Source of the DNA: Candidatus Cottocaccamicrobium excrementipullorum
GTDB taxonomy: Bacteria > Bacillota > Clostridia > Lachnospirales > Lachnospiraceae
Reading direction: 5' to 3'
DNA length: 40,476 nucleotides
NCBI GenBank assembly: GCA_018713255.1
Contig: DVFL01000026.1
Coordinates: 1 to 40,476 of the forward strand
Position 1 is the stretch's first letter, and each line of letters opens with the position of its first letter. A model generated the notes under the pieces. The model was not told the DNA's origin. It ran no database searches and saw only the letters and a program-made list of their open reading frames with translations. Position numbers and translations under genes: made by a program. Of the stretch, positions 1 to 26,917 are shown in pieces.

Positions 1-160
1 GCTAATTGTTTTAAACCGTTTTACTTTAGGTTTTGTTCTGAATTCTTTCTCAAATTCAAGGCTATCCTCTAGCCCTGTCTTTCAGAATTTTCAGGGTCTG
101 TGTATGATTCAATCTTCAATTCTCAAGGTTCTTTTTCGGCATCGTAAATCAATGCCTAAC
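1..160 (-). other. Region 3' of the tRNA-Ser pair, possible stable-RNA leader
   Basis: No open frame of note. On the minus strand, just after the tRNA-Ser(GGA) gene, there is a short stretch around 116-137 reading GAACCTTGAGAATTGAA. It resembles the conserved leader or spacer box found next to 16S and 23S genes in Clostridia. A small hairpin (GGCTA/TAGCC) lies near 60-74. An rRNA operon or more tRNAs may follow beyond the left edge, but nothing inside the window proves it. Confidence 0.25.
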
Positions 161-248
161 GCAGAAGGAGGGATTTGAACCCTCGCGCCGCTACTAACGA
201 CCTACTCCCTTTCCAGGGGAGCCCCTTCAACCACTTGGGTACTTCTGC
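161..248 (-). tRNA. tRNA-Ser (anticodon GGA)
   Basis: An 88-base cloverleaf on the minus strand. The acceptor arms GCAGAAG/CTTCTGC pair, the anticodon stem CTCCC/GGGAG encloses loop CTGGAAA (anticodon GGA, reading UCC and UCU), a long class II variable arm is present as expected for tRNA-Ser, and the T arm carries GGTTCAAATCC. CCA is not encoded. It lies 39 bases downstream of the other tRNA-Ser and is probably cotranscribed with it. Confidence 0.96.
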
Positions 249-287
249 ATGGTTGACTCATCTCTTCCTTATACGATTGTCCCAAAC

Positions 288-372
288 GGAGAGAGTGGGA
301 TTCGAACCCACGCGCCCTTGCGGACAAACGGTTTTCAAGACCGCCTCGTTATGACCACTTCGATATCTCTCC
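288..372 (-). tRNA. tRNA-Ser (anticodon TGA)
   Basis: An 85-base class II cloverleaf on the minus strand. The acceptor arms GGAGAGA/TCTCTCC pair, the anticodon loop is CTTGAAA (anticodon TGA), the variable arm is long (around GTCCGCAAGGGC), and the T arm carries GGTTCGAATCC. CCA is not encoded. It is the first gene of a two-tRNA transcript, and a consensus promoter ends about 15 bases upstream. Confidence 0.96.
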
Positions 373-386
373 AAACGCGCTTAAGT

Positions 387-3679: not shown

Positions 3680-4117
3680 TTACAGAGACCGTTTCCACAT
3701 AATCAATGCATCTTCCTGAGGATTCCGATAATATCCAGCCCGTCTGGCCTCGGTTTTAAATCCCGCAGAAATGTAGAGTTTTATGGCCGGAGCGTTGGAT
3801 TCCCTAACTTCCAGAGTCATGGCGCCGGCCCCTTTTTGTCTGGCAGCATTTACCATTGCCCCCAGCAGTTTCCTTCCCAGCCCCTGCCTGCGGAAAGCCG
3901 GCAGAACGGCAATCCTCTGGATTTCTCCCTCTCCGGCAATCACACTGACAGCGCCGTAAGCAGCTAACCTGCCATCTTCTTCTGCTGCCAGGAAAAAATT
4001 CCAGGACTTCTCCATGCTGGAAGTCAAAAGCTCCTTAGACCAGTTCTCATGGAAGCAGGCCGCTTCAATGGCAGCCGCCTGAGGCAGATCCGCCTCTCTC
4101 ATATATCGAATTATCAC
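3680..4117 (-). CDS. rimI: GNAT N-acetyltransferase, RimI family
   Basis: A 145-residue GNAT-fold acetyltransferase. The family is named for N-terminal acetylation of ribosomal protein S18, although substrates in Firmicutes are less certain. The acetyl-CoA binding signature RRQGLGRKLL in motif A and the C-terminal NAPAIKLYISAGF segment typical of RimI are visible. It begins four bases before the end of tsaB, an arrangement (tsaE-tsaB-rimI-tsaD) common across Firmicutes. The assignment rests on family sequence and on this context. Confidence 0.93.
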   Translation of the reverse strand: MIIRYMREADLPQAAAIEAACFHENWSKELLTSSMEKSWNFFLAAEEDGRLAAYGAVSVIAGEGEIQRIAVLPAFRRQGLGRKLLGAMVNAARQKGAGAMTLEVRESNAPAIKLYISAGFKTEARRAGYYRNPQEDALIMWKRSL

Positions 4118-4812
4118 AGCTGGATCCCTTCTCTCTCACGTTCAGCCTGAGGTTTCCGCAGATACTCCGGCTTATGGTCAGCCGCAGTTTCTATCTGCCC
4201 TCTTTCCATATAAATCCGTCCCAAAGCCGCAACGCTGGCCGCTCGCTGCCGGTTGCTTTGCGCCGGTGCAAAGGCATAGGGAACCTTCATCTCTTTCTGA
4301 ATCAAAGAAACATATGCCGGAACCCCATCTCCCAAAAAGATTACTTTTTCTCCACGTTGGTTCAGCTGCTGAATCAGCGTTTCCATGGACATAGCGCATT
4401 GTGCCATTTCCACCTGAAGATCATCCATTACATAATAAAGGCCTGTATACACCTGGCTTCGTCTTGCGTCCATAATGGGGCAGACAAGCGCCTCTGCTCC
4501 CCAGAGATTATAAGCCATGGCGTCAACCGTAGGCACATGAATCAGCGGCTTTTTCAAGGCCAGCCCCAGTCCTTTTGCTGTGGCTGATCCAATGCGCAGC
4601 CCGGTAAAAGAGCCTGGTCCACCTGATACTGCAATGCCGTCTATGGTGTGCAGATCCAGCTCCAGCATCCGGCTGATTTCATCCAGCATGGGAAGCAGAG
4701 TCTGAGAATGGGTTTTCTTATAATTAATGGTATACTCCGCCGTCAAAATTTCATCTGTCACCAGCGCTACGCTAGCTACCAGAGAAGAACTTTCAATTCC
4801 TAATATTTTCAT
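4114..4812 (-). CDS. tsaB: t6A biosynthesis scaffold protein TsaB
   Basis: A non-catalytic partner of TsaD needed for t6A37 formation. It forms the TsaB-TsaD heterodimer to which TsaE binds. The chosen start at 4812 gives MKILGIESSS, the standard TsaB N-terminus, with AGGGG nine bases upstream. A longer in-frame start at 4920 would overlap tsaE and add a non-homologous, basic N-terminus, so it is rejected. The protein has 232 residues. SGGPGSFTGLRIG and GLALKKPLIHVPTVDAMA are typical. Catalytic metal ligands of TsaD are absent, as expected. Confidence 0.94.
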   Translation of the reverse strand: MKILGIESSSLVASVALVTDEILTAEYTINYKKTHSQTLLPMLDEISRMLELDLHTIDGIAVSGGPGSFTGLRIGSATAKGLGLALKKPLIHVPTVDAMAYNLWGAEALVCPIMDARRSQVYTGLYYVMDDLQVEMAQCAMSMETLIQQLNQRGEKVIFLGDGVPAYVSLIQKEMKVPYAFAPAQSNRQRAASVAALGRIYMERGQIETAADHKPEYLRKPQAEREREGIQL

Positions 4813-4840
4813 CACATTATCCCCTGTTCTGCAAGCAGCC

Positions 4841-5293
4841 TTAATCCTTGAGCTGTTGTTCTTCAGGACGGCTGACCGTAATTCGGCGGTATTCCGTCCC
4901 CCGTTCAAGATCCTTTTCAATTCCTATCCGGCATGCATCTTCTGGAATAATTTCTGCTATCAGCTGGGGCCATTCCACCAGGCTTACCCCTTCGCCGTAA
5001 AAGCAGTCTTCGTATCCAATTTCTTCCATTTCTTCCACATCGCCGATGCGATATGCATCGAAATGGTAAAAAGGCAGTCTTCCCCCTTCATAGGACTGAA
5101 GAATGGTAAATGTTGGACTGTTCACCGCCTCATCAATCCCCAGACCCTGGGCAAATCCCTGGGCGAACACAGTTTTCCCTGCTCCCAGATCTCCTTCCAG
5201 ACAGTAAACCTCACCAGCCTTAGCCGCCTGGCCCAGCCGAACGCCAAGAGCAAAGGTTTCCTCCGCCTTGTTTGTCTCAATTATTTCTTTCAT
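4841..5293 (-). CDS. tsaE: tRNA threonylcarbamoyladenosine biosynthesis ATPase TsaE
   Basis: A small P-loop ATPase that binds the TsaB-TsaD complex and is needed for turnover in t6A synthesis. The start at 5293 (MKEIIETNKAEE) is chosen over an upstream ATG because AAAGGTG is well spaced and because it forms a TAATG stop-start overlap with the upstream gene. The length is 150 residues. Walker A GDLGAGKT, the NSPTFT segment, and FYHFDAYRI with Walker B-like acidic residues are present. Genes tsaE, tsaB, rimI and tsaD are all in this cluster. TsaC/Sua5, which makes the activated intermediate, is not in the window. Confidence 0.95.
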   Translation of the reverse strand: MKEIIETNKAEETFALGVRLGQAAKAGEVYCLEGDLGAGKTVFAQGFAQGLGIDEAVNSPTFTILQSYEGGRLPFYHFDAYRIGDVEEMEEIGYEDCFYGEGVSLVEWPQLIAEIIPEDACRIGIEKDLERGTEYRRITVSRPEEQQLKD

Positions 5294-8230: not shown

Positions 8231-8307
8231 ATTCCTCGTGACTTGCGGGATTTTCCCCGGCACAACACAGCAAATGACTAATGTACCAGATACAATGGAG
8301 GAAATCT

Positions 8308-9000
8308 ATGAGTGAACAAAACTGGACAACTGATCCAGACCATATAGGCAACCAGGAACCCGATCCTTCCGCCGGAGCCGACACTTCTCAGCCTGTTCCC
8401 CAAGGAGACAACTGGCAGCAAGCTCCACAGCAAAACGATTGGCAGCAGGCTCCGCAGCAAAATCCGCAGCAAAACAATTGGCAGCAGGCTCCGCAGCAGG
8501 ATGGCTGGCAGAATCAACAGCCCAATGACTGGCAGGGTTATCCCCAGCAGCCCGGCAGCGGCTACGGTCAGATTCCTCCTGATTCATCATGGAACGGCCG
8601 GCCCCATGCAGGCTTTGGGCAGCAGTCCCCAAATCCCTATTCCCCAGAAAACGGACAGACCTCCTCTGGAAGCATTTATTCGCAAAAGAAGCCAGCTGAC
8701 CGAAAAACTACCGGAGCTATCGCTCTGGGAGTCTTCTCTCTCCTGGTAAGCTGCTGCTGTTTTCCCCTGGGAGTATGCGTAGGTTTTGCCGCAGCCATGG
8801 CAGGACTTGCTCTGATCATTATCTCCCGCACAGAAAACCAGAATCAGCTGTCCGGATACGGAGCTGCAGGTCTTGCTCTGTGTGTAATCGGCCTGCTGGA
8901 AAGCCTGTTTATCTTCGGCTGCTACGCTTATGTAGTCAGCGATCCGCAGCTTTCTGCTATTTTAAATGAAATGCTTCGCTCTCTAGGATATGGCTATTAA
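8308..9000 (+). CDS. DUF4190-like membrane protein with Q/N/W-rich repeat N-terminus
   Basis: A 230-residue protein. The start at 8308 (MSEQNWTTD) follows TGGAGG with good spacing, and the upstream in-frame ATG at 8281 lacks one. The first half is low complexity: tandem units close to NWQQAPQQN recur about four times, then G/P/Q/Y-rich sequence, so it is probably disordered and cytoplasmic. The second half has two hydrophobic hairpin segments, GAIALGVFSLLVSCCCFPLG with its extension and YGAAGLALCVIGLLESLFIF, as in DUF4190 proteins. The function is unknown. The convergent neighbour encodes another small membrane protein (DUF2752), and such small membrane proteins often lie near each other in Clostridia. 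Confidence 0.8.
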   Translation: MSEQNWTTDPDHIGNQEPDPSAGADTSQPVPQGDNWQQAPQQNDWQQAPQQNPQQNNWQQAPQQDGWQNQQPNDWQGYPQQPGSGYGQIPPDSSWNGRPHAGFGQQSPNPYSPENGQTSSGSIYSQKKPADRKTTGAIALGVFSLLVSCCCFPLGVCVGFAAAMAGLALIIISRTENQNQLSGYGAAGLALCVIGLLESLFIFGCYAYVVSDPQLSAILNEMLRSLGYGY

Positions 9001-12460: not shown

Positions 12461-13592
12461 TTAATCCTGAGCATGCTTATCCGGGCATCCCAGACTCAGC
12501 CAGCGCAGATATGCGCTGATAAAGGGATCAATATCTCCATCCAGAACACTGTTTACATTGCCGCTTTCTTCTCCGGTTCGGTGATCTTTCACCATGGTAT
12601 AAGGCTGAAGAACATAAGAGCGAATTTGATTGCCCCAGCCGATTTCTTTTACATCGCCTCGGATATCCGAAATTTTTTCTGCATTTTCCTGCTGCTTAAG
12701 CATCATCAGCTTAGTCTTCAGCATCTGCATCGCCTTATCCTTGTTCTGGAACTGAGACCGTTCATTCTGACAGGTAACTACAATTCCTGTGGGAATATGG
12801 GTAATTCGGATTGCAGAGGAAGTTTTGTTAATGTGCTGTCCTCCGGCGCCGCTGGAACGGTAAGTATCAATCCGCAGGTCATCCATATTGATCTCCACAT
12901 CCAGATCTTCCTCAATGTCGGGCATTACATCGCAGGACACAAAGGAGGTCTGCCGCTTTCCTGCTGCGTTAAAAGGCGAAATCCGCACCAGACGGTGAAC
13001 ACCTCGTTCAGATTTCAGATAGCCAAAGGCATTGCTTCCATTAATCTGAATGGCGACCGACTTAATGCCGGCTTCTTCACCGTCAAGATAATCCAGCACC
13101 TCTGTGGTAAAACCATGCTTATCCGCCCATCTGCAGTACATGCGGTAAAGCATGCTGCACCAGTCGCAGGACTCCGTTCCTCCAGCTCCTGCATTCAGGC
13201 GAAGAATAGCATTACAGTTGTCATACTCGCCTGTAAGAAGAGTGGCAAGCCGCAGCTCCTCCAGCTTACTAGAGAAATCCTCCAGCATCTGCTTAACCTC
13301 GGGAACCACCGAAGCATCGTTTTCCTCATTTCCCATTTCGATAAGGAGGCCGATTTCTTCATAGGCTGTTTCCAGCTTTTTAAATTCCTCTACAGTGTCT
13401 TTTAAGTTCTTGGCTTCCTTTACCAGACGGGCAGATTTCTCCGCATCATCCCAGAAGCCAGGTTCTTCCATGTTCTTATCTAATTCCTCGATTCGCTTTA
13501 CCTTGTTATCCAGGTCAAAGTGAATCCCTCACTTCCACTAATGGTTTTTCATACGTTGACAACGTATATTTGTACTGATCTAATTCAACCAC
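12461..13592 (-). CDS. prfB: Peptide chain release factor 2 (programmed +1 frameshift)
   Basis: RF2 reads UGA and UAA stops and triggers release of the finished protein. The gene is in two frames. A GTG start at 13592 (after GGTGA) gives 25 codons ending VEVRDSL, then an in-frame TGA at 13515-13517. Skipping one T at CTTTGAC restores the reading frame and continues DLDNKVKRIEELDKNMEEPG to the stop at 12461, for 376 residues in all. The anticodon-mimic SPF (in VRISPFNAAG) identifies RF2, and GGQ (in GAGGQHINK) is the catalytic loop. Autoregulation by termination versus shift is established for this family. The exact start (13592 or 13601) is the main uncertainty. Confidence 0.95.
13514..13530 (-). 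promoter_or_regulatory. prfB: prfB programmed frameshift site
   Basis: Minus strand GAGGGATTCACTTTGAC. It has the slippery CTT followed by TGA C, with a Shine-Dalgarno-like GAGGG five bases before CTT. In the known system, low RF2 leads to a pause at TGA and slippage to GAC. The SD-like element is two bases farther from CTT than the classic E. coli spacing. Confidence 0.9.
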
Positions 13593-17142: not shown

Positions 17143-17673
17143 ATGCGTTATACGATCATTGGAAGAAACATCGAAGTAACCCCTGGATTAAGACAGGCAG
17201 TTGAGGAAAAAATCGGAAAATTGGATCGTTATTTTACTCCCGATACCGAAGTGAACGTAACCTTAAGCGTTCAGCGTGAACGCCAGAATATCGAAGTAAC
17301 TATCCCGATTAAGGGAACGATTATTCGTGCAGAAGAATCCAGCAATGATATGTATGTTTCCATTGACCTTGTGGAGGAGATCATTGAACGTCAGATTTTA
17401 AAATATAAGAAAAAACTGGTAGATCGGAAGCAGTCTGCCGCTTCTTTCTCAGATGCCTTTATCCAGGAAGATACTCCGGCATCTGAAGATGAAATCAAGA
17501 TTGTTAAGACGAAGAAATTTGCAGTTAAACCCATGGATCCGGAAGAGGCCTGCCTGCAGATGGAAATGCTGGGACATAACTTCTATGTATTCCTGAATGC
17601 AGAAAGCGAACAAGTATGCGTGGTATACAAGAGAAAAGGCGGAACCTACGGTCTGATTGAGCCGGAATTCTAA
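17143..17673 (+). CDS. hpf: Long-form ribosome hibernation promoting factor
   Basis: Binds the 30S subunit at the decoding region and pairs ribosomes into inactive 100S dimers during slow growth. 176 residues, typical of the long form found in Firmicutes. The N-terminal S30AE domain (about 1-100, beginning MRYTIIGRNIEVTPGLRQAV) is followed by a charged linker and a C-terminal dimerisation domain (from about 118, VKTKKFAVKPMDPEEACLQMEMLGHNFYVF). AAAGGAG lies ten bases before the ATG. A possible DnaA-box cluster sits about 270 bases upstream. Confidence 0.96.
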   Translation: MRYTIIGRNIEVTPGLRQAVEEKIGKLDRYFTPDTEVNVTLSVQRERQNIEVTIPIKGTIIRAEESSNDMYVSIDLVEEIIERQILKYKKKLVDRKQSAASFSDAFIQEDTPASEDEIKIVKTKKFAVKPMDPEEACLQMEMLGHNFYVFLNAESEQVCVVYKRKGGTYGLIEPEF

Positions 17674-17696: not shown

Positions 17697-18242
17697 ATGA
17701 AAAAAACACGATTAATTCTGGCCGCCGCCATGATTGCCGCCCTTTGGGCCGGCAGTGCCATGGCGGACGAGACGGCAGCCGCGTCTCAGCCTGCTGCTCA
17801 GCCCTTAACCGTCACTGCGGCAGACTCCGCTCCGCCGCTGCAGACTGGATGGGTTCTTGATGGCGGACAATGGAAATATTATTATGAAGATGGAACCATG
17901 GCCCGCTCTGCCTGGGTCGAAGATGGCGATGGAATCTGGTATTTTTTAAACGATGACGGCACCATGCGCACCGGTTGGCTGCAGAACGGAGATGATTGGT
18001 ATTTCTTTGATTCCTCCGGAGTGATGCAGACAGGCGCTGTCCGCGTGGAAGACCGGGTATATTATCTGCAGAACGATGGCTCCCTTCTGGTAGGAAGGCG
18101 AAGCGTAAACGGCATCCGATACAGCTTTAACGAAAATGGCTGCAGCGGTCAAATGCCCTACACCAGCAAAATGTTTCATTCTGACGGAACACCGTTTACC
18201 GATGCTGAACGCCAGGATTTAAGCTGGAATTCTCCATCCTGA
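17697..18242 (+). CDS. Secreted cell wall-binding repeat protein
   Basis: 181 residues. A signal peptide (about 1-23; lysine start, hydrophobic core, AMA-DE cleavage region) is followed by an A/P/T-rich stretch and four to five tandem repeats of about 20 residues of the choline/glucan-binding type (GWVLDGGQWKYYYEDGTMA, WYFLNDDGTMRTGW, WYFFDSSGVMQTG, YYLQNDGSLLVG). These repeats bind polymers of the cell envelope. No catalytic domain is present, so its role is unclear. It begins 23 bases after hpf with CAGGAGA, is probably cotranscribed with it, and ends at a strong terminator. Confidence 0.88.
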   Translation: MKKTRLILAAAMIAALWAGSAMADETAAASQPAAQPLTVTAADSAPPLQTGWVLDGGQWKYYYEDGTMARSAWVEDGDGIWYFLNDDGTMRTGWLQNGDDWYFFDSSGVMQTGAVRVEDRVYYLQNDGSLLVGRRSVNGIRYSFNENGCSGQMPYTSKMFHSDGTPFTDAERQDLSWNSPS

Positions 18243-24020: not shown

Positions 24021-26786
24021 TCACTTCCCCTCCTCCTCATTTTGGCGAAGCTGTTCGATCCAAGCTGCCGTTTCCTGATCCAAATCCTGAAACAGAAGAC
24101 TTCGTTTTTTCGGGAACCGCTCCAGATAATCCCGGCGGATCACTTCCATGGTTCGTTCGATCTCTTCCTTAAGGTCTCTGGCCGACATTCTAAGCCCTCC
24201 CTGGCCCAGAATAATCACCTGCTCCAACCCATCGGAAGTCGCCACCGTCACCCGATATTTTTTTCCAAGCTGGTGAACCGTTTTTTCAATATACTGATCG
24301 GCCGTCTCCGCCTCTTTCGTGTAAACGACATAAATATTGTGATACTTCTGCACCTCCTGGCTGCGCCGGCCTTCGACTTTATAAGCGTCAAATACCAAAA
24401 TCACATGATTCTGCTTAAATCCTTGGTAATTGCAAAGTATGTCCATGAGCCGGTGCCTGGCTCCTTCCATGCTGGTTTTGGAAAGGTCTTTCAGCTCATC
24501 CCATGAGAAAATAATATTGTATCCATCCACTAAAAGATACTCTTCCACCGGCTCTCGTTTCTCCCACACCCGCTGGCGAATTACCTGATTTCTGCCGGAT
24601 TCGATCAGCGCTCCTGGCTGACGGCTGCGTTTACTTTCTCCATAAGTCCGTTTAAAAATCGCTTCCAGTTCTTTATCCTCTTCCAAGGAATACCCTCTTC
24701 CTCCTACGGTCAAAGAGGAAGATCTCTCCGGGAAGACTGGCGCCGGAAAGGGCTGTTCTTGTTTTTCTTTCTCCTCTGCTGCCGCATCATCTGTTCCCAG
24801 CCCGGCAGAAAGATGCATATAATCATCTGCCTGATCCCAGGGAACCACAAAGCCGGCGCCATGAGAGCAGAAAACAGAATCCCCTGTATTTTCCAGATCT
24901 AAATCTGGATCGTAGCCTGCCCGCTGAATCACTTCTTCCTCATTATGACAGGGCTCGTATCCTTTCATGGTGCACAATAGCTGCCCCATTCCTCTGGTGT
25001 AGGCCGCCACCTGCGTCTGATATCCCATCATCTCCGACACCGGAGCGCTTCCTGTTAACAGGGCCTTCTCCCCTTCCTGAAGAGGAGGAGCAAAGGTGCC
25101 GCTCATTTTCTGGATATCAGACATGGCTCGTCCCAAATTCTGGGCCGGAATCTCCAGGCGAAACTCGTAATAAGGCTCCAGCACCATGCTTTTGGCTTTC
25201 CGCAGCCCCTGGCGCACGGCCCGGTAAGTGGCCTGGCGGAAATCCCCTCCTTCTGTATGTTTAAGATGGGCCCTTCCCGTAAGCAAAGTAATCCGCATAT
25301 CGGTAATCGGCGCCCCCAGCAGAACGCCTTTGTGCTCCCGTTCTTCTAAATGAGTAAGGATCAGGCGCTGCCAGTTTCTGTCCAGCACATCCTCACTGCA
25401 CTGGGTGACAAAAGAAAGTCCGCTCCCTCTCTCTCCAGGCTCCAAAAGAAGATGGACTTCTGCATAATGGCGGAGAGGTTCAAAGTGTCCCGCCCCCTCC
25501 ACCGGCTCAGTAATGGTTTCCTTGTAAACAATGTTTCCCGTTCCCAGCTCCACCTCTACCTTAAACCGTTCCCGGATCAAAGCTTTCAGCACATCAATCT
25601 GTACCTCCCCCATTAACTGCGCCTGGATTTCTCCCAGCTGCTCGTCCCAAACAATATGAAGAAGAGGCTCTTCTTCCTCAAGCTGCCTTAAATTCGTCAG
25701 CATTTTATGAACGTCGCATCCTTCCGGCAATTCAATGCGATACGAAAGCACCGGTCCAAGAACCGGCTCCATCTCTCCAGTCTCTCCCCCCAGTCCCTGG
25801 CCTGCCCAAGTTTTCGTGAGCCCCACAACAGCGCATACTGTTCCTGCTTCCACCTGGGATACAGTCTGAAATTTCGCTCCTGAATAAACGCGGATCTGAC
25901 TGACCTTTTCCTGCCAGCTCTCCTCTTCTTTGCTCTCCTTTTCCTTTCCCTCCAGGATGTCCCTCACTTTTAAGCTTCCGCCGGTAATCTTCATGAAGGT
26001 AAGACGATTTCCCTGGCCGTCCCGAGTGATCTTAAAAACCCGTGCCCCGAATTCGGCAGGATACTGCGGACAAACTGCCAATCGTCTGATCCCTTCCAGG
26101 AATTCATCAATTCCCCAAACCTTCAGGGCAGAACCAAAATAGCACGGAAAGATCTGCCGGTCTGCAATCATTCCGGCAATCCGCTGGTCACTGATTACGC
26201 CCTCTTCCAAATAAGCATTCAGCGCCTCTTCTCCGCAAAGGGCCGCCTCCTCATAAAAGGCCTGAGGATCTTCTTTTTCCAGAGAAAAATCTGTACATCG
26301 TTCATCCAGCTTCTCTTTCAGCTGTCTAAGAAGCCTCTCTCTGTCCACGCCTTCCTGATCCATTTTGTTTACGAACAAAAAAACAGGAATATGATACCGT
26401 TTTAACAGCTTCCATAAGGTAATGGTATGTCCCTGGACTCCATCTGCACCGTTAATTACTAAAATTCCATAATCCAGCACCTGGAGAGTCCTCTCCATCT
26501 CTGCCGAAAAATCCACATGTCCCGGGGTATCCAGAAGGGTCACCTGAAGATCCCCCAGAGAAAGTACCGCCTCCTTGGAAAAAATAGTAATTCCCCGGTT
26601 TCTTTCCATTTCATATGTATCTAAAAATGCATCTCCTGCATCTACCCGTCCCAGCTTTCTGATCACTCCGCTCCGGTAAAGGAGAGCCTCGGAAAGGGTT
26701 GTTTTTCCTGCATCCACATGGGCCAGCAGGCCGATGGTAATGTTGTTGGACAGCCCCTTCTCTTGATTTACAGACGTATTTTCCAT
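24021..26786 (-). CDS. TetM/EF-G-type translational GTPase fused to a YacP/Rae1 NYN nuclease domain
   Basis: 921 residues. Residues 1-655 form an EF-G/TetM-like factor: G1 AHVDAGKTT (22-30), G2 RGITI (64-68), G3 DTPGH (86-90), G4 NKMD (140-143), then domains II-V, ending with SVFCSHGAGFVVPW (about 637-650). A linker (660-748) leads to a YacP-type NYN domain (749-921) with candidate acidic metal ligands D754 (LVDGYNII), D800 (LVFDAYK), D830 (ETADQYIE) and D852 (TSDGLEQ). The domain IV loop equivalent to the tetracycline-displacing SPVS region of TetM reads HLKHTEGGDF (507-516), so drug protection is doubtful. B. subtilis Rae1/YacP is a ribosome-dependent A-site endoribonuclease. The combined role is inferred: ribosome binding plus RNA cleavage. 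Confidence 0.93.
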   Translation of the reverse strand: MENTSVNQEKGLSNNITIGLLAHVDAGKTTLSEALLYRSGVIRKLGRVDAGDAFLDTYEMERNRGITIFSKEAVLSLGDLQVTLLDTPGHVDFSAEMERTLQVLDYGILVINGADGVQGHTITLWKLLKRYHIPVFLFVNKMDQEGVDRERLLRQLKEKLDERCTDFSLEKEDPQAFYEEAALCGEEALNAYLEEGVISDQRIAGMIADRQIFPCYFGSALKVWGIDEFLEGIRRLAVCPQYPAEFGARVFKITRDGQGNRLTFMKITGGSLKVRDILEGKEKESKEEESWQEKVSQIRVYSGAKFQTVSQVEAGTVCAVVGLTKTWAGQGLGGETGEMEPVLGPVLSYRIELPEGCDVHKMLTNLRQLEEEEPLLHIVWDEQLGEIQAQLMGEVQIDVLKALIRERFKVEVELGTGNIVYKETITEPVEGAGHFEPLRHYAEVHLLLEPGERGSGLSFVTQCSEDVLDRNWQRLILTHLEEREHKGVLLGAPITDMRITLLTGRAHLKHTEGGDFRQATYRAVRQGLRKAKSMVLEPYYEFRLEIPAQNLGRAMSDIQKMSGTFAPPLQEGEKALLTGSAPVSEMMGYQTQVAAYTRGMGQLLCTMKGYEPCHNEEEVIQRAGYDPDLDLENTGDSVFCSHGAGFVVPWDQADDYMHLSAGLGTDDAAAEEKEKQEQPFPAPVFPERSSSLTVGGRGYSLEEDKELEAIFKRTYGESKRSRQPGALIESGRNQVIRQRVWEKREPVEEYLLVDGYNIIFSWDELKDLSKTSMEGARHRLMDILCNYQGFKQNHVILVFDAYKVEGRRSQEVQKYHNIYVVYTKEAETADQYIEKTVHQLGKKYRVTVATSDGLEQVIILGQGGLRMSARDLKEEIERTMEVIRRDYLERFPKKRSLLFQDLDQETAAWIEQLRQNEEEGK

Positions 26787-26822
26787 GAAAATACCCCTTT
26801 CTCTACTAAATATATCTTTTTC

Positions 26823-26888: not shown

Positions 26889-26917
26889 TTGACAAGTTCC
26901 GGCAAAGGCCCTATAAT
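26889..26917 (+). promoter_or_regulatory. Consensus promoter of the HD-domain/TtcA-like operon
   Basis: Perfect TTGACA (26889-26894), 17 bases, perfect TATAAT (26912-26917). An imperfect dyad, GGCGGAA (26882-26888) with TTCCGGC (26897-26903), overlaps the -35 and could be an operator. A promoter this strong often needs repression or is constitutive. The leader is about 90 bases. Confidence 0.82.

Follow-up and report, generated by a model that had tools for sequence, protein, structure and literature searches.

A translational GTPase fused to a Rae1/YacP nuclease in Lachnospiraceae, a candidate ribosome-directed endoribonuclease

The fusion gene and its nuclease domain

The window analysed here is the whole 40,476-nucleotide stretch of contig DVFL01000026.1 (assembly GCA_018713255.1) from Candidatus Cottocaccamicrobium excrementipullorum, a member of the Lachnospiraceae. 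On its minus strand, at 24021-26786, an open reading frame (ORF) of 921 residues encodes a fusion protein. A complete GTPase of the EF-G/Tet type, with a C-terminal extension specific to its family, is followed by about 80 residues of disordered linker and then by an NYN nuclease domain of the Rae1/YacP type (Table 1). An earlier note on this DNA had described a full translational GTPase and a C-terminal NYN nuclease in one frame, joined by a long linker. Our coordinates and length agree with it, and so does the architecture: the Pfam domains score over their cut-offs, the active-site residues are kept and the structure model has a disordered stretch at about 668-747. The fusion is confirmed as real and intact, and it lies far beyond chance. 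A chance or frame artefact was rejected on the ORF, the Pfam matches and the residues kept across aligned fusions.

Table 1. Features of the fusion gene and their positions in the window
Feature	Positions	Strand	Basis
Fusion ORF, EF-G/Tet-like translational GTPase, linker and Rae1/YacP NYN nuclease	24021..26786	-	ORF and Pfam
Shine-Dalgarno-like AAAGGGG, 7 bases 5' of ATG	26794..26800	-	read from sequence
GTP-binding domain GTP_EFTU, residues 15-235	26082..26744	-	Pfam
EF-G domain II (EF-G_D2), residues 246-326	25809..26051	-	Pfam, 27.1 against a cut-off of 27.0 bits, barely over
EF-G domain III (EFG_III), residues 345-415	25542..25754	-	Pfam
EF-G domain IV (EFG_IV), residues 418-532	25191..25535	-	Pfam
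Domain-IV tip loop 3 KHTEGGDFR, residues 509-517	25236..25262	-	alignment
EF-G domain V (EFG_C), residues 535-616	24939..25184	-	Pfam
GTPase C-terminal extension, SVFCxHGAGFxVPW type, residues 617-661	24804..24938	-	alignment
Flexible linker, about residues 668-747, one short helix 703-715	24546..24785	-	structure model
NYN_YacP (Rae1) nuclease domain, residues 751-914	24045..24536	-	Pfam, sequence and fold match
Acid D754	24525-24527	-	alignment
Acid D800	24387-24389	-	alignment
Acid D830	24297-24299	-	alignment
Acid D852	24231-24233	-	alignment

The N-terminal part is a translational GTPase of the EF2 family, with the G motifs and domains II-V all present by Pfam and alignment. Its residues D25, K28 and H90 (the histidine of DTPGH) are kept in 72/72 aligned fusions, a set made of the 71 fusions among the best 80 named loci and the window protein. 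The full-length model has a mean predicted local distance difference test (pLDDT) score of 84.3 and a predicted template modelling score of 0.64, and all 50 structures listed as its fold matches in the PDB are of the EF-G or EF-2 type. The linker is mostly disordered in this model (pLDDT below 50 at residues 674-685, 687-707 and 715-744), with the short helix called within it. A short conserved motif, ELxxIFxRTYG, stands amid the disorder at residues 704-719 (about 24630-24677, minus strand). The scan for promoters and terminators around the fusion gave results close to those of its shuffles. A perfect 12/12 sigma-70 match at 26889-26917 is on the plus strand, where its position suits transcription of the divergent HD-domain gene (27013) rather than that of the fusion.

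The nuclease domain is close to Rae1 by several criteria. The NYN_YacP family (PF05991) matches residues 751-914 with 176.5 bits against a cut-off of 24.6 (E 5.8e-52), and a sequence comparison of residues 749-921 pairs them with Rae1 of B. subtilis (PDB 5mq9) at E 6.4e-30. For a separate model of residues 748-921 (mean pLDDT 87.9), 5mq9 is also the top fold match (E 3.5e-12, template modelling scores 0.73/0.79), and the next match, the D15 nuclease of phage T5, follows at E 3.5e-3. The likeness to B. subtilis Rae1/YacP (PDB 5mq8, 5mq9) thus extends over the fold, four acids and 41% identity in the fold match. The difference is that the B. subtilis protein stands alone, as do the Rae1/YacP proteins of about 170 residues in other Firmicutes, whereas the window copy is the C-terminal domain of a GTPase. 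Residues D754, D800, D830 and D852 align with Rae1 D7, D53, D81 and D104, and all four are aspartate in the 72/72 rows. In a first set of 29 family fusions, D754, D800 and D830 were invariant and D852 was found in 28/29, the remaining row ending at a contig end. The acids named in the earlier note, and its reading of residues 749-921 as a Rae1-type domain, are therefore upheld by the fold search and the alignment. The two findings that it said would speak against the idea, a region without a Rae1-like fold or acids and an independent YacP in the same genome, did not appear.

Distribution, origin and genomic context

The genome of the organism (96.1% complete, 42 contigs) contains a single YacP match, the fusion itself. 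A profile search for YacP detected no second yacP in this genome, and the idea of a second detectable copy was rejected. The earlier note had asked whether genomes with the fusion lack a stand-alone yacP, and none was found in this one. The question that it raised of how often the domains are fused or separate in Clostridia also has an answer: the fused form is usual in the family, and no genome of the class has both forms over the cut-off. The best-scoring named relatives belong to the Lachnospiraceae, and the best 80 named loci comprise 71 fusions and 9 short YacP frames. In a survey of the family, YacP was found in 135/150 genomes. We counted these by hand, calling long frames fusions by their length and confirming the GTPase part in the 28 family loci that were read: 121 have frames of at least 690 residues, 9 have stand-alone genes and in 5 (G042, G095, G098, G128, G140) the frame is split or falls short of this length, in several cases where a contig ends. 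The fusion is the usual form of YacP in this Lachnospiraceae-type family.

At the level of the class, YacP was found in 128/196 genomes, as 67 long frames (21 families), 58 stand-alone genes (23 families) and 3 broken ones. Three families contain both forms, in different genomes, and none of the 128 positive genomes has both over the cut-off. One genome that is 61% complete (G282) has two long frames, and in another (G285) the second match scores below the cut-off. A check by hand showed a GTPase match in each of the 67 genomes with long frames. In the phylum survey, 72/119 genomes had a match, 71 of them over the cut-off. Judged by length alone, seven of these frames are of fusion size, two from the class (our genome and G184) and five from outside it.

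Phylogenetic trees of the two parts suggest one fusion event, followed by spread by descent or transfer. The NYN tree has 87 rows (58 fused, 29 alone; L151, L063, L060, L061 and domains under 120 residues left out) and shows one change of label, with a support of 73, a weak value that speaks against this reading. In the GTPase tree, with 86 rows, the fused clade has a support of 97. Not included in this tree were L151, which duplicates the gene of L107, the contig-end locus L063 and rows such as L111 with fewer than 500 aligned residues. The single change of label on the first tree and the fused clade on the second are what points to a single origin. Two rows labelled unfused are found within the fused GTPase clade, one at a contig end (L072) and one in split frames (L059); the latter is labelled fused in the NYN tree because its two frames are adjacent. 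The fusion genes of L059 and L111 both lie in split frames, which may be either pseudogenes or assembly errors. Two other fused NYN domains (L048, L150) are very divergent, on long branches, and L150 is also altered in its GTPase and domain-IV motifs. Both may be fusions in decay or with a specialised role.

The sister of the fused clade is a group of 16 unfused GTPases (support 99). These proteins of about 655 residues have 43-49% identity to the fusion GTPase in class and family genomes. The nine clade members shown have, as in the fusion, the KHTE/SGGDFR loop and the C-terminal extension. They differ from the fusion in stopping right after the extension, without a nuclease domain.

The place of the ordinary yacP gene offers a further view of the replacement. 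The gene names cysS, mrnC, rlmB and ispF used here follow the gene order of B. subtilis. Among the nine stand-alone family loci, yacP follows rlmB and stands beside mrnC and rlmB in seven (the order is not shown in L050 and L054). In 12/12 hand-chosen fusion genomes, rlmB was found and is not followed by yacP. This search detected mrnC in 10/12 of them, the exceptions being L236 and L243, and in some of the genomes cysS is displaced or missing. Our own rlmB locus (L232) also lacks yacP, and the window neighbours place the fusion elsewhere than after rlmB, which is a usual though not a defining place for yacP. The same shortened order is found in two genomes without a YacP match (L244, L245). 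The loci read revealed no conserved neighbour of the fused gene, and 11 class loci of unfused sister GTPases no common neighbour beyond three close relatives. Operon logic was considered and gave no lead to the function.

The position of the stand-alone gene could be taken as a hint that the fusion is a factor for ribosome assembly or for the maturation of rRNA or tRNA, the GTPase docking on subunits while the NYN domain trims RNA. The association with mrnC and rlmB would suit such a role, and a part in the maturation of rRNA and tRNA has been proposed for the YacP-like NYN domain (cited in PMC4342817). Yet the fused copies examined lie outside the mrnC-rlmB operon, and two studies describe B. 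subtilis Rae1 as an mRNA endonuclease that cuts in the ribosomal A site (PMC12320835, PMC6613710). We regard a maturation factor as very unlikely. Since the active residues of both the GTPase and the nuclease are kept, with a linker between them, and since the fusion stands in place of the stand-alone yacP in genomes whose rlmB locus lacks one, the fusion is probably the Rae1/YacP of this lineage.

Relation of the GTPase to Tet proteins and EF-G

The fusion itself is not new. Atkinson 2015 (PMC4342817) reported fusions of Tet and YacP-NYN in ten clostridial species and a possible role in resistance. The window protein fits this description, in which a YacP-NYN domain is joined to a GTPase of the Tet type: it has the same two domains, in Clostridiales, and is the same kind of protein. 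That account presents Tet proteins that acquired a domain; here the fusion is widespread, replaces the stand-alone yacP and has a tip that is not of the Tet(M) type. The protein is ordinary in its family and under-studied. Our literature search of listings and the starts of abstracts, with most subscription papers outside its scope, found no later work on the fusion. Within that search, we did not find in print what is added here, namely how far the fusion extends, that stand-alone yacP is missing and the rlmB locus shortened, that the fusion probably arose once and that its domain-IV tip is distinct.

The idea in print is that of a Tet-type protein protecting ribosomes from antibiotics, with a gained RNase. 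In its favour, the best NCBIfam model for the window protein is tet_protect (NF012153). Yet the score of 424.1 bits is far below the equivalog cut-off of 775. The same holds for a close fused relative (L046, 415) and for three unfused ones (L133, 450; L132, 468; L074, 406). Among the controls, L146 (880) and L147 (883), which pass the Tet(M) model too, and L144 (1001) are above it. The model for EF-G (TIGR00484) scores 316.8 bits, under its own equivalog cut-off of 659.4. The sequence of the domain-IV tip tells a similar story. In the 27 chosen rows displayed (L077, L151 and L063 left out), KHTEGGDFR or close variants occur in 7 fused and 9 unfused proteins, with L150 the most changed. The tip is SPVSTPADFR in L146 and L147, SPVSTPSDFR in L144 and DSSEMAF or similar in the EF-Gs, and it is different again in L143, L078 and L145. 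The window protein has no match to the SPVSTPADF-type tip, with KHTEGGDFR in its place. Pro509 in the TetM tip is reported to overlap the tetracycline site (PMC7456112). However, a triple alanine mutant of the tip is reported to be still active (PMC4750697), and the Tet-like L143 (606 bits) and L078 (453) are also without this tip and under the tet_protect cut-off. Because an alanine-changed tip stays active, the difference only makes a protective role less likely.

Other comparisons point the same way. The C-terminal extension is common to the fused and unfused proteins shown, whereas neither the Tet-like nor the EF-G-like rows have it. Four genomes of the class (G175, G184, G197, G301) hold a separate 644-residue Tet-like frame besides the fusion, to which the window GTPase has about 30-33% identity. 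The likeness to Tet(M)-type ribosomal protection proteins lies in the EF-G-like five-domain GTPase and the nearest named NCBIfam model, while the window protein differs from them in domain-IV loops 1 and 3, the extra extension and the nuclease. With EF-G it has in common the order of domains, but the identity is 20-27% in the 50 fold matches listed and the tip is different. Elsewhere in the genome of the organism, EFG_IV occurs in two more frames, 715 and 718 residues long. From its sequence, the fusion GTPase belongs to a clade apart from both Tet(M)-type proteins and EF-G. The label "TetM/EF-G-like" of the earlier note holds at the level of the superfamily, but not as Tet(M) identity, given the score, the survey proteins of Tet(M) type at 880 and 883 bits and the other tip. 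The name "TetM" is misleading for a protein with a tip unlike those of Tet(M) and EF-G and a score so far below the tet_protect cut-off.

Plasmids provide another view of this question. Among 72,556 plasmid records, there were only two in which a single place covered 80% or more of the query. Annotation would favour a Tet function, as 18/20 of the records listed carry TetM/TetW/TetO/TetS family names, the other two being named translation factor GTPase family. An unfused relative recurs on plasmids of Ligilactobacillus salivarius (hits H3-H20); in the GTPase part its identity to the fusion is about 51%, and 17/18 of these rows are named tetracycline ribosomal protection protein, possibly by over-annotation. 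A mobile resistance gene was rejected as the principal reading on the score, the tip, the class survey and the plasmid collection. Overall, we consider a Tet-type protection protein with a gained RNase unlikely.

Proposed function and significance

What could such a protein do? Loss of rae1 suppresses the defect of EF-P mutants in B. subtilis, according to the studies that describe it as an A-site nuclease (PMC12320835, PMC6613710) and to a third (PMC10100781). We favour, as fairly probable, a tethered, ribosome-directed endoribonuclease, in which the Rae1 of the lineage is carried by an EF-G-like GTPase and the two act one after the other at the A site. EF-G-like GTPases use the same A site as Rae1. 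The GTPase part would bind the factor site and the A site of ribosomes, probably stalled ones, and would release after GTP hydrolysis. The tethered nuclease, at high local concentration, could then enter the vacated A site and cut the mRNA in it, which would open the way to rescue of the ribosome. Since both modules should not fit one A site together, the action would be sequential; alternatively, the linker could let the nuclease reach a neighbouring site.

A more specific version is tentative, and we hold it as a possibility that deserves attention. The tip of the clade's own class would inspect the A site and recognise a particular stalled state, and hydrolysis would hand the site to a Rae1 domain that has lost some docking residues. 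Four positions are relaxed in the fusions: R118 is present in 29/29 stand-alone YacP and 27/58 fused domains, R165 in 28/29 and 18/58, E107 in 27/29 and 37/58, and E123 in 28/29 and 37/58. The window protein itself keeps R866, E855 and R914, its sole change among these positions being E123 to D871. In the C-terminal part of the NYN alignment, which is less sure, the domain ends less than 55 residues after D852 in 10/58 fused and 0/29 stand-alone rows (4/70 and 0/8 for named loci among the best 80). The relaxed positions and the early ends may support a hand-over, as though a contact of the stand-alone protein were now made by another part.

Several observations weigh against a ribosome-directed Rae1, in addition to the low support already noted for the NYN tree. 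Ribosome binding, cleavage, GTP gating and the order of events are all inferred. YacP went undetected in 15/150 family genomes (12/126 of good quality), which makes the function look dispensable. In one family genome (G039), a long frame is accompanied by another match that also exceeds the cut-off; the contig start truncates this piece, which cannot be assigned as fused or alone. Finally, 10 class genomes have an unfused sister GTPase, five with and five without a stand-alone yacP (Fisher p 1.0; the contig-end piece of fused type in G280, with 58% identity and no YacP match, was not counted). This even split implies that these GTPases do not need Rae1 and are not its obligate partners. In the family, the unfused GTPase was found in 5/9 genomes with a stand-alone yacP and in 0/15 without YacP (p 0.003; the genomes are related). 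A partnership read from the co-occurrence of the two genes was tried and failed in the class survey.

These counts bear on a different explanation, namely that the chain carries two independent housekeeping activities. Rae1 would perform its translation-dependent mRNA decay and the GTPase its own translation job, for example the clearing of a non-canonical A site, with the link fixing the stoichiometry and no gating. In addition to the sister GTPases found without YacP, 53/58 class genomes with a stand-alone yacP have no such GTPase, and a long, mostly disordered linker with one short conserved motif would suit two separate functions. However, a link that fixes only stoichiometry predicts frequent re-splitting, and none was seen in the loci read and the trees apart from the broken frames L059 and L111 and contig ends. 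The relaxation of R118, R165, E107 and E123 in the fusions also argues against independence. We find this explanation possible but doubtful.

The rest of the window contains further genes. A release factor 2 gene lies at about 12461-13592 (minus strand), with a CTT TGA C shift site at 13514-13520 (minus strand). The TGA is codon 26 of a frame that starts with GTG at 13592, and the listed 336-residue ORF is the +1 part only; we take the motif to be the prfB shift site and this to be ordinary prfB frameshifting. Two adjacent tRNA-Ser genes, with anticodons GGA and TGA, are located at 159-373 (minus strand), and an Rfam scan of the whole window found nothing besides these two tRNAs. The gene tsaD and a second, weaker TsaD-family gene, perhaps tsaB, lie at 1319-2344 and 4114-4920 (minus strand), with an adjoining acetyltransferase gene and ispD nearby. 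A long-form hibernation-promoting factor, with S30AE and C-terminal domains, is encoded at 17143-17673 (plus strand), and just downstream, at 17697-18242, is a choline-binding-repeat protein. A 239-residue ORF at 8281-9000 (plus strand) has no Pfam match at E 1e-5 and is divergent from a tex-type gene.

If the fusion is a ribosome-directed Rae1, a large bacterial family has joined ribosome inspection and mRNA cutting in one enzyme. With a GTP-clocked nuclease, a translational GTPase would itself trigger the cleavage of mRNA and thereby commit the ribosome to rescue, a task otherwise done by free nucleases. Two questions would then become directly testable: how Rae1 picks its ribosomes, which could be addressed with one protein, and which purpose the chromosomal "TetM-like" GTPases serve in Clostridia. 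It would also follow that genes annotated today as tetracycline-resistance proteins may partly encode housekeeping factors, a point that would matter for resistance surveys.

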